Shown here in pieces: positions 31,710-36,404 of a DNA stretch of 49,626 bases (position 1 is the first letter of the stretch; each line of letters opens with the position of its first letter). The stretch is from Bacillota bacterium (GTDB lineage: Bacteria; Bacillota; Sulfobacillia; Sulfobacillales; Sulfobacillaceae), in the NCBI GenBank assembly GCA_021841025.1, contig JAKBWA010000081.1, positions 1-49,626 of the forward strand. The letters run 5' to 3'. The position numbers were made by a program, and so were the translations under genes. The notes below the pieces were generated by a model. It was not told the DNA's origin. It ran no database searches and worked only from the letters and a program-made list of their open reading frames with translations.

Positions 31710-32477
31710 CTAGAAATCGTCTCCATCTTGCGCAAGTTGAGAGTACGCTTCACTTTCCTTTGGTGTTGCTGCCGATGAACCTTGCCATGCTTCCAGAAGA
31801 GCGGCAGCAAAAACGCCCGCATTTTTGGCACGATAAACATAAGAACCCAAAGACACGGCTTCAAAACCGTGCTTTAACATTTGCTGCCGTTCGAATTCAC
31901 TAAATCCCCCTTCTGGGCCCACGGTCAACAAACATTCGAACCTCCGTGTAGGTGTTCTGTCGTTGACCCAGTCCCAGATGTTTCGGCCTTGGGGGTCGAG
32001 CATGACTTTATGCGGGATTTTTATATCGAACAAAGCCTGAAGGGAAACGGGTTGGGAAATTTCTGGCACAAGAATCCGTTGTGATTGTTCGGTCGCTTCT
32101 TTGGCAATCGTATGCCATCTTTGCCACTTGGCCTCAGAGATCTCCCTTACTATGGTTCTTTGGGTCACCAAAGGATAGAACCGGCAAATTCCTGCCTCCG
32201 TTCCTCTTTCGACAATTTCACTGAACAAATCTTTCTTTAGCAATGCCTGTGCTAAAAAAACACGCGGATTCCCACAAACGGGCCGCACATCCACACATTG
32301 CGCAAGATGGGAATTTTGTGTCGTCACACAGTGAACAATTTGAGTTCCACTGAGAATCGCCTCGAACGACGTCTTGGGCTTCATACGCATGACTCGAAAC
32401 AAGTAATGTTCCTGCTCAGGCGTCAAAATCAGGCGATCACCTGTAAATTGCTCTGGTTCGACCACAATTCGAATCAC
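31710..32477 (-). CDS. rsmE: 16S rRNA m3U1498 methyltransferase
   Basis: SPOUT-class methyltransferase acting on U1498 of 16S rRNA. The PUA-like N-terminal part ([25 protein letters not shown]) is followed by the SPOUT domain with LLTVGPEGGFSEFE and a C-terminal VSLGSYVYRAKNAGVFA knot region. In the last motif Lys replaces the more usual Glu/Thr (for example LRTETA), which is worth noting. I start at GTG 32477, which overlaps the prmA stop as GTGA. The tail is acidic and longer than usual. Confidence 0.92.
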   Translation of the reverse strand: MIRIVVEPEQFTGDRLILTPEQEHYLFRVMRMKPKTSFEAILSGTQIVHCVTTQNSHLAQCVDVRPVCGNPRVFLAQALLKKDLFSEIVERGTEAGICRFYPLVTQRTIVREISEAKWQRWHTIAKEATEQSQRILVPEISQPVSLQALFDIKIPHKVMLDPQGRNIWDWVNDRTPTRRFECLLTVGPEGGFSEFERQQMLKHGFEAVSLGSYVYRAKNAGVFAAALLEAWQGSSAATPKESEAYSQLAQDGDDF

Positions 32478-33382
32478 AGAACCACCACCAGCATCATGAC
32501 CCATCCGCCGCGCTCAACCATTTTGACAACATGCCCTCGCAATGGTTCGACCGCGCGTATAACCTCATCCCGCCTCTCCCACAAAATTCCAGACAAAAGC
32601 ACTTGGCTGCCGGAATGAAGATGGGTCAGCAATAAGGGCCACAGAGGAATAATGATGTCGGCTATAAGATTCAACAAGGCCAAGTCAAACAATTGTCCCG
32701 CCACCATATCCTCTAGCGTTCCCAACACCGTAGAAATTTTGACCTGATTCTGCCGGATATTGGCTTCAAGGGCCTGGTATGCGACTGAATCCGGCTCAAC
32801 AGCCCACACGTCTTTGGCATGCATGCGGGCCGCCAAAATACTCAAAATGCCCGACCCCGCCCCTAAATCCAACACCCTAAGTCCCTTAGGATTCAAGGAG
32901 ATGATTTCATTCATACACATAAATGTGGTGGGATGCGCTCCGGTGCCAAAGGCCATTCCGGGATCCAAACTGATCCGATGATTCTCGTCTACGCCACATG
33001 AATCCATCCATTGAGGGATCACAGCATATCCTTGCCGCAAATAGATTGGCTGATAATACTTCTTCCAATTGTGTGCCCAGTCCTCGCTATGGACCACCTG
33101 TACCGTCAGTGTCCAACCTCGTTCCTGAGCTGCTTCTTCAATTTGTGCTTTGGCCGCGTTAAATTGTTCACCCGAAGGAAAATATCCCCGCACGAAGGGT
33201 TCGCCTGGCTCCAGCGGAATATCCGCAAAAGGAGATTCAATCGGCGAACCGTCTTCCCATTCGACGCCCATCAGGCCCAAATCCAAAAACATCTGGGCAG
33301 CCAGCATGGCATCGTCTTGGGGCAAGAAACACGTTACGGCCAGATAGTCCAGAGGTGATGCAGAATTACCGGCCCAGGACAT
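32474..33382 (-). CDS. prmA: Ribosomal protein L11 methyltransferase
   Basis: SAM-dependent methyltransferase that trimethylates L11. The 302-residue protein has the N-terminal L11-recognition domain (about 1-110) and the Rossmann methyltransferase domain with [27 protein letters not shown] and the NLIADI catalytic segment ([15 protein letters not shown]). Its ATG overlaps the end of dnaJ by 17 bases; AAGGTGA precedes it. The order dnaJ-prmA-rsmE is conserved in Firmicutes. Confidence 0.95.
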
Positions 33383-34487
33383 CTTTCACCTTGCGAAAGA
33401 TACTTTTATCTTCAGGAGAAACCTCTTCCTTGCGCATCTCGGCCCACATATGCAGAAGTTCCCGCTCTTTGTGCGTCAGCTGAGTTGGCACCGTGATTTT
33501 GACTTTAACGTTCAGAGATCCACGAATGTGCGAATTGCCCAGTCTGGGCAATCCCTGCTTGGCAAGCTTGAAGACGGTTCCCGTCTGCGTCCCCTCAGGA
33601 ATGTGAAGCATCTCTTCGCTATTGAGTGTTTTGATTTTTAAGTCAGTTCCCAAAGCAGCCTGAGCGAAAGACAATGGTTCCTCCACCCACAAGTCGTCCC
33701 CATCTCGTGTAAACCGTTCATGTTGCTTGACGTGAACAAAGACAATTAAATCTCCTGGAGGTCCTCCATGCTGTCCAGCTCCGCCTTCCCGAGCCACCCT
33801 GAGCCGCGTTCCCTCGTCTACTCCGGGAGGTACATTTACACTAAGATTCTTCTGTGCCCGAATATGTCCTCGACCGTGACATTCCTTACATGGCACCGCA
33901 ATAATCCGCCCGCCGCCATGACACTGTGGACACGTCTCTACCTGCCGAATTCGCCCTAAGAAGCTCTCACGGATTCGTTCAACCTGCCCATTGCCGTGAC
34001 ACGTCGGGCACATCTCCAGTTTCGTGCCCGGTTCTGCTTGGTTGCCATGACATCTCGGGCACACTTCTTCCCGGGCTATGGTAATGTCCCTTGTGCTTCC
34101 ACTCAGCACTTCTTCCAATGTCAGCGTTAAATCGTAGCGTAAATCTGGACCTTTCGCCGCGCTGTTGCGTCTCGCCCCAGAGGATCCATTGCCAAAGAAT
34201 ATGTCAAAGATATCGCCGAAGCCGCCAAAGCCAAATTCCTGGCCAAACGGATTGCCTCCCATTTGCGGGCCTTCCGCTCCAAACTGGTCATAGCGCGCTC
34301 GCTTTTCAGGATCCTGCAGCACTTGATAAGCCTCATTAATTTCTTTGAAGCGTTCCTCCGCAGTCTCGTCACCCGGGTTGGCATCGGGATGATATTTTGC
34401 TGCAAGCCGTCTAAAGGCACGTTTAATTTCGTCAGGACTCGCATTGCGGCTGACACCTAAAACCTCGTAATAATCGCGTTTCGCCAT
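33366..34487 (-). CDS. dnaJ: Chaperone DnaJ
   Basis: Co-chaperone that stimulates DnaK. The J domain has HPD at 33-35. A Gly/Phe region ([14 protein letters not shown]) follows, then four CxxCxGxG-type zinc repeats ([32 protein letters not shown]) and the C-terminal substrate domains. The length of 373 is typical. GGGGAGGG lies before the ATG. Only 53 bases separate it from grpE, where dnaK normally lies. Confidence 0.97.
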
Positions 34488-34540
34488 TGTTTATTTCCCT
34501 CCCCTTCCATCTCAGGTGACATGCCAGTCGCGTTTGAGTC

Positions 34541-35266
34541 TTATGATGGGGAATCTGTTGCGGACTCCTGGTCGTCCTGGGTGCCTTGCCCAGCTGACAC
34601 TTTGACCATACTCGCCCGAAGAACACGATCTTCCCATTGAAATCCCTTTAACAATTCTTCCACAATGGTCCCTTCAGGATGGTCGCTTTCGACTCGTTGC
34701 ACCGCCTCGTGCACCCGCGGATCGAACTGTGATCCGACTGACGGAATAGCGCTCACTCCAAATTTGCTCAAGACATCATTGAACCCCTTCAACGTCATTT
34801 CCACACCCATTCGCCATGCTTTGGCTTCTTGGGTGTCGGGCATATACTTTAACGCTCGCTCCAGATTATCATACACAGGCAAGAACTCACCGAGAATGGT
34901 TCCCGTCACATATCGGCGCAATTCCTCTCGCTCGCGGTCCACGCGCCGGCGGTAATTGTCAAAGTCTGCTTGCAATCTGATTAATTGATCATAACGATCT
35001 TGCGCCACAGTTTGCCAGTCCGTTTTGACTGTCTCTTCAATGCTCTCTTCAGAGTCACGAAAGTTCGCTTCTTCCTCTTTCTCACTGCTGTCAACTTGTG
35101 AGGCAAAATCTTCATCAGTCAGATCTTTGTTGACTTCTTGTTCCTGGTCTTGATTTTCGTCTGCGCGCCCACTGTCCTCATGATCTGTCGGCGTCTCGAC
35201 AGGTTTCTGGCCGTCTCCGTGAGTTCCCGAAGACTTGTGTTGTTCCTTTTCCCCTTCGTTGCCCAT
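34541..35266 (-). CDS. grpE: Nucleotide exchange factor GrpE
   Basis: Exchange factor for DnaK. The first 90 residues are acidic and disordered. A long coiled coil follows (about 90-150, with RYDQLIRLQADFDNYRRR) and then the beta wing (VGSQFDPRVHEAVQ, VEELLKGFQWEDRVLRASMVKVS). At 241 residues it is longer than the usual 190-200 because of the acidic leader. AACGAGGAGG precedes the ATG. It is co-transcribed with hrcA. Confidence 0.96.
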   Translation of the reverse strand: MGNEGEKEQHKSSGTHGDGQKPVETPTDHEDSGRADENQDQEQEVNKDLTDEDFASQVDSSEKEEEANFRDSEESIEETVKTDWQTVAQDRYDQLIRLQADFDNYRRRVDREREELRRYVTGTILGEFLPVYDNLERALKYMPDTQEAKAWRMGVEMTLKGFNDVLSKFGVSAIPSVGSQFDPRVHEAVQRVESDHPEGTIVEELLKGFQWEDRVLRASMVKVSAGQGTQDDQESATDSPS

Positions 35267-35341
35267 TGAAATCCTCCTCGTTTGTCATCCATCAACTTAC
35301 TCTTTAAAATCCATGGTCGCTGATGTCAGAGAACTTAACGA

Positions 35342-36355
35342 TTATGCCCATTTTAGCGCTTGCGACAATTCGTCCGACACGACCTCTAACACCGTCATAA
35401 CGTAGCCGTATTGCATGCGTCTGGGGCCCACAACCATGACTCTGCCTACGACTTTGGACCCCACGCGGTAAGATGCGGTCACCACACTGCAGTCTTGAAT
35501 ATCTTCCACAGACATTTCCGACCCAATTAAGGCTATCACACCTTCGGCTGAATGCGCCTGAATCATCTGCTCAACAGCTTTATCCTGCTCAAAAAATCCC
35601 AGAACTCTCCGCACTTTGTTAATATCGTTAAACTCGGGATAATTGAGTATGGTTAAAGGCCCCGCTACCGTCATCCGTTCGTCATCGGGCCCGTCGGACA
35701 ACAACCACCCTAGGACCATCTGGCGTAAAGCAACATTCTCAAAGAGGCTCGTCGACCATGGATCTAAAATAGAATCCTGGAGATCTCGCATCGAAATCCC
35801 GCCAAATTCACGGGAAAAATCTTGTGCTAAGGTGTTTAATTGAACCAAATTCAATTCCCGGGGAACCGATACCGTTCGGTTTTGGGTGAACCCGTCTTTA
35901 GTCCGGATAATGAGTAACGCATTGTTCTCATCCACTCCCACAAAACGCAATGAAGAAAATATGCCCTCTCCCCATGATGGAGCCAGAACAATCGAGGGAT
36001 AACCCGTAATATCACTGACCAGTTTGGCGGTTTGATGAATAAACCATTCTAGTTCCCGAATACGCGACTGGTATGTGAATCGGATACGCTCCAGTAATTG
36101 ATTCCCCACGGGAACTTTGGCCATCAGTTCATCAACATAAAACCGATAGCCTTTGTCGGAAGGGATGCGTCCTGAGGAAGTATGAGGCTGTTCCAGAAAA
36201 CCCCAGTCTTCCAGATCGGCCATCTCATTGCGTATGGTCGCCGGGCTTATACCTAAGTGATATTTCTTGGCTAAGGTACGAGAGCCTACCGGCTCCGCTG
36301 AACTGATATAGTCTTCGGTTACAGCTTGTAAAATGGTTCGTTTCCGCGTATCCAC
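35342..36355 (-). CDS. hrcA: Heat-inducible repressor HrcA
   Basis: CIRCE-binding repressor of class I heat-shock genes. The N-terminal winged helix (RKRTILQAVTEDYISSAEPVGS, with SPATIRNEMADLEDWGFLEQPHTSSGRIPS) is followed by a GAF-like domain and C-terminal part. I start at GTG 36355 (337 residues), which has AGGAGG eight bases upstream; the longer frame to 36364 would begin within that site. The CIRCE element 22 bases upstream indicates autoregulation. Confidence 0.95.
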   Translation of the reverse strand: MDTRKRTILQAVTEDYISSAEPVGSRTLAKKYHLGISPATIRNEMADLEDWGFLEQPHTSSGRIPSDKGYRFYVDELMAKVPVGNQLLERIRFTYQSRIRELEWFIHQTAKLVSDITGYPSIVLAPSWGEGIFSSLRFVGVDENNALLIIRTKDGFTQNRTVSVPRELNLVQLNTLAQDFSREFGGISMRDLQDSILDPWSTSLFENVALRQMVLGWLLSDGPDDERMTVAGPLTILNYPEFNDINKVRRVLGFFEQDKAVEQMIQAHSAEGVIALIGSEMSVEDIQDCSVVTASYRVGSKVVGRVMVVGPRRMQYGYVMTVLEVVSDELSQALKWA

Positions 36356-36377
36356 ACCAATCACCTCCTATCCCGAA

Positions 36378-36404
36378 TTAGCACTCTCGAACCGCGAGTG
36401 CTAA
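36378..36404. promoter_or_regulatory. CIRCE operator
   Basis: Perfect CIRCE: TTAGCACTC, nine bases, GAGTGCTAA. It lies between the hrcA promoter and start codon and is the binding site for HrcA. It is the only copy in the window. Confidence 0.97.

Follow-up and report, generated by a model that had tools for sequence, protein, structure and literature searches.

Why should an hrcA operon that is ordered in every other respect as in most Bacillota pass directly from grpE to dnaJ, and where does such a bacterium keep its dnaK? The question arose from a Sulfobacillus genome and from the window, the whole stretch of 49,626 nucleotides that was analysed. Read on the minus strand, the window holds a perfect 27-mer CIRCE operator between hemW and hrcA (36378–36404), 13 bp upstream of the heat-inducible repressor gene hrcA (35342–36364), then grpE (34541–35266), a short junction (34488–34540), dnaJ (dnaJ1, 33366–34487) and prmA (32474–33382), which overlaps the end of dnaJ and is the last gene of the operon, as in other Bacillota. 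HrcA exceeded its TIGR00331 cut-off (290 bits against 197.2), as did GrpE with PF01025 (159 bits against 25.8) and the canonical DnaJ, with its zinc region, with TIGR02349 (425 bits against 377). The HrcA matched that of S. benefaciens AMDSBA1 at 90% and that of S. thermotolerans Kr1 at 76%, which assigns the genome to Sulfobacillus. The chance expectation for a CIRCE in the window was 0.01 at up to three mismatches. The earlier note on this DNA had claimed that dnaK is missing from hrcA-grpE-dnaJ, and this was borne out: only 53 bp separate grpE from dnaJ at the site that dnaK occupies in most Bacillota, and they include, as had also been said, the dnaJ ribosome-binding site, GGGGAGGG, ahead of the ATG on the minus strand. 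Besides this good ribosome-binding site, no further feature was seen in the junction. The operon thus shares with the HrcA/CIRCE class I operon of Bacillota (hrcA-grpE-dnaK-dnaJ) the order CIRCE, hrcA, grpE, dnaJ and prmA, and likewise a second CIRCE at groES-groEL, but has no dnaK between grpE and dnaJ.

The note had offered two fates for dnaK, a place elsewhere, uncoupled from the operon, or loss. The first was found and the second is ruled out by one full-length dnaK on contig C48, recovered when the genome (3.39 Mb, 118 contigs) and the region upstream of the gene were searched as the note had proposed. Its product scored 984 bits with TIGR02350, above the equivalog cut-off of 822.55, and the other Hsp70 match in the genome was partial, covering 116 positions at 44 bits, and fell in a frame of 366 residues that is probably MreB-like. 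On C48 the genes run hspR-like, dnaK, dnaJ2, clpB and then a TlpA-like gene, with the first two frames sharing 38 bp and the cysteine region of DnaJ2 reduced. A genome scan for CIRCE gave two perfect sites, one belonging to hrcA and the other to groES-groEL; dnaK has no such operator. A single copy of grpE was present.

The split between hrcA and dnaK is a trait of the whole order. It was seen in all 30 genomes of the family and all eight of the order in which both genes were found, complete chromosomes among them, and in four of these the two genes lie on the same contig more than 400 kb apart. Across the phylum the two genes were coupled in 97 of 101 genomes, so the note's statement that nearly all Firmicutes have hrcA-grpE-dnaK-dnaJ holds; the four uncoupled genomes were that of the window, G096, G138 and G134, and the hrcA contig of G134 holds the start of dnaK and then ends. 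In most of the family hspR-dnaK-dnaJ2-clpB forms a separate unit, and the linkage of the hspR-like gene to dnaK is also kept in other families of the class. The sister family f2 (L095, L097–L102) has no HspR-like gene directly upstream of dnaK, and where the contig extends that far clpB follows dnaK without dnaJ2; the regulator of dnaK may have turned over in that family.

The ancestry of the proteins was followed in trees of DnaK and GrpE, the final DnaK tree omitting P075_L188, the second dnaK copy of its genome. Sixteen hrcA-linked DnaKs formed one clade (100/100), and the order's DnaKs clustered with other HspR-linked DnaKs (100/96) with the columns of an N-terminal insert left out. This insert, of 22–24 residues in the order's DnaK, is absent from most sampled Bacillota DnaKs; it is present in all HspR-linked DnaKs and missing from most hrcA-linked ones (those that have it include G048, G056 and G154), and it requires one change on the tree built without its columns. 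In the GrpE tree the HspR-type GrpEs formed one clade (100/98), and the order's GrpE, the genome's sole copy in the window among them, formed a distinct one (100/99). The order thus appears to have mixed its machine, with DnaK taken from an HspR-type operon and the grpE and dnaJ of its hrcA operon kept. Several relatives have dnaK and grpE from the HspR-type operon and have kept the dnaJ of the hrcA operon alone.

We therefore regard it as likely that dnaK was replaced by the lineage of an HspR operon, leaving one chaperone machine supplied by two separately controlled operons. The ancestor of the order would have carried the classical hrcA-grpE-dnaK-dnaJ operon together with a second dnaK lineage in an HspR-type operon. 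The second lineage would have made the dnaK of the hrcA operon redundant and led to its loss, while grpE and dnaJ remained under HrcA/CIRCE control and the HspR-type operon lost its own grpE. Today's machine would then come from CIRCE-hrcA-grpE-dnaJ1 and, elsewhere in the genome, from hspR-like-dnaK-dnaJ2-clpB.

The order's DnaK could instead be the native gene, descended vertically, which left the hrcA operon early and settled beside an hspR-like gene with no replacement at all. Such an early move is disfavoured and we consider it rather unlikely, although the trees leave it some room: the hrcA-linked and HspR-linked clades are neighbours, and an AU test that grouped the order's DnaKs with the hrcA-linked ones gave a p-AU of 0.087, which does not reach the 5% level. 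Nor was a conflict visible with the HrcA tree, which was too poorly resolved to reveal one and was dropped as a proxy for the species tree. Against vertical descent, hrcA-linked DnaKs within one class join those of Clostridia and Bacilli rather than their HspR-linked class mates, whereas the DnaKs of G096 and G138, from outside the class, join the HspR-linked ones. HspR-type operons in class relatives and in G096 and G138 also carry their own, distinct grpE, and some relatives carry a miniature dnaK gene at the old site alongside a full-length dnaK elsewhere. On these patterns in the trees and gene orders, the DnaK of the order is probably a replacement and not a native gene that moved; the replacement event itself is what we infer from them.

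The next question is what controls this dnaK. The protein encoded ahead of dnaK has HspR as its best NCBIfam match (71.4 bits, 4.6e-20), below the cut-off of 105, and is for that reason named HspR-like; it carries a MerR-type DNA-binding domain (PF13411, 61 bits), and its gene is tied to dnaK. The HAIR operator (CTTGAGT-N7-ACTCAAG) was not found upstream of dnaK, and a scan of the genome for it returned the control level (115 sites, 124 in the control). A repeat of the form CTTAT-N9-ATAAG was present upstream of hspR in 14 of 19 relatives with at most two mismatches, in most of them about 60 nt ahead of the start codon; its mean best mismatch count was 1.68, whereas shuffled sequences averaged 3.38 and never fell below 2.95. 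Other arm spacings were not prominent in the same 19 upstream regions. Since these related sequences were also the ones from which the motif was derived, it is only a candidate operator, to which the HspR-like protein may bind. It replaced a first candidate, ACTCTG-N8-CAGAGT, that was present in part of the genus alone, and a genome scan for a wider HspR regulon with a longer motif gave the hspR promoter alone at two mismatches, the remainder being at chance level.

The hspR-like gene might be a mere neighbour, its MerR-type product having another target and dnaK being constitutive or regulated in some other way. The score below the cut-off, the missing HAIR and the want of an hspR-like gene upstream of dnaK in f2 would all fit, yet we hold this to be improbable, given that HspR is the best family match, that the frame overlaps dnaK, that most of the family and further families of the class preserve the linkage, and that the repeat is conserved at the promoter. 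Regulation of dnaK by the HspR-like protein is expected, and with dnaK behind this regulator and grpE and dnaJ in the hrcA operon, one folding machine would have two switches. DnaK is a known co-repressor of HspR in Streptomyces and mycobacteria (PMC8223512), and by analogy DnaK may feed back on the HspR-like protein here. Judging by what is known of Streptomyces, mycobacteria and B. subtilis (PMC8223512; PMC6032397), the HspR-like protein would repress with the help of free DnaK, which would maintain its activity, and HrcA with that of GroEL. DnaK would accordingly be tuned and induced separately from GrpE and DnaJ.

As for the junction itself, the mapped loci of the family and order read hrcA-grpE-dnaJ-prmA with short junctions, and the check in relatives suggested in the note found the dnaK-less grpE-dnaJ junction kept in all that were mapped. 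The window comes from a draft of 118 contigs, but an assembly collapse or deletion artefact at 34488–34540 has practically no chance of being the explanation and is refuted, because the identical junction stands in genomes of one or two contigs (G004, G005, G011 and G035) and an intact dnaK was found elsewhere in the genome. The junction without dnaK is real and inherited.

Twelve relatives in the class have a standalone gene of about 80–100 residues that matches DnaK residues 226–303, which we take to be subdomain IIB of the Hsp70 fold (L137:2556–2846, L138:3866–4198, L147:1871–2251, L139:4–435, L209, L211, L221 and L235–L241). In the seven mapped loci it takes the expected position of dnaK, with a group III chaperonin gene on one side and dnaJ1 on the other, except that in G055 the contig ends before dnaJ1. 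Those genomes with the mini-gene that were checked have, in addition, a full-length dnaK at another locus. Two genera-level sets offered several sequences each, and dN/dS within these close sets, 0.12–0.20 (G183–G185) and 0.24–0.37 (G189–G191), points to purifying selection; the best matches were mostly hrcA-linked DnaKs, by small margins. A search of the window's genome for the mini-gene returned the full-length DnaK only. In many relatives of the class (L131, L132, L134, L135, L137–L139, L144 and L147) a group III (archaeal-like) chaperonin gene separates hrcA from grpE or dnaJ; no such gene is present in the Sulfobacillus window, and dnaK operons with internal group III chaperonins were already known (PMC5635000).

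Tentatively, the grpE-dnaJ junction could be the site from which DnaK was displaced, with the dnaK of sister lineages shrinking to a selected IIB protein and Sulfobacillus representing the end state. If so, GrpE, DnaJ or the chaperonin may be served by the IIB protein as an adaptor or bound by it as a decoy, and Sulfobacillus would have gone without even the mini-gene, its machine divided between two repressors.

DnaK acts in proportion with GrpE and DnaJ, and most Bacillota ensure that proportion by a single operon. Here it would depend on two repressors, which in other bacteria answer different chaperones, HrcA to GroEL and HspR to DnaK. This makes the maintenance of Hsp70 stoichiometry directly testable, and suggests that DnaK, GrpE and DnaJ of differing ancestry can be combined. 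The operon of Actinomycetota reads dnaK-grpE-dnaJ-hspR, with clpB also in the regulon; it shares with the C48 locus a MerR-type HspR(-like) gene with dnaK, a second dnaJ and clpB, but in the latter the hspR-like gene comes first, grpE is absent, clpB is in the same row and the candidate CTTAT-N9-ATAAG repeat takes the place of HAIR. Helicobacter pylori, whose hspR operon contains a CbpA-type DnaJ, and Campylobacter likewise combine both repressor kinds, HspR and HrcA, in the same organism. The hrcA-grpE-dnaK genes of H. pylori form a single operon controlled by both (PMC6032397), whereas here dnaK and grpE lie in separate operons.

In the literature searched, which covered few subscription journals, no description of the split itself was found. 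A comparison of acidophile proteostasis reported that grpE is single, that S. acidophilus TPY has two dnaK copies, and that in acidophilic Clostridia the grpE context is unusual and HrcA absent (PMC10490939). NCBI taxonomy places Sulfobacillus in Clostridia, and our results contradict the reported absence, as hrcA is clear in this acid-loving genome (window 32474–36404) and its relatives.

Other Hsp70 arrangements were met along the way. Some family members (L152 in G002, L153 in G026) have a second, divergent Hsp70 that shares 36–41% identity with DnaK; a GrpE-like gene of its own and a J-domain match lie close by. On two Actinomycetota plasmids, of Nocardia (L164) and Streptomyces (L166), the row reads dnaK-grpE-dnaJ-cbpM-clpB, with CbpM in the place expected for hspR.
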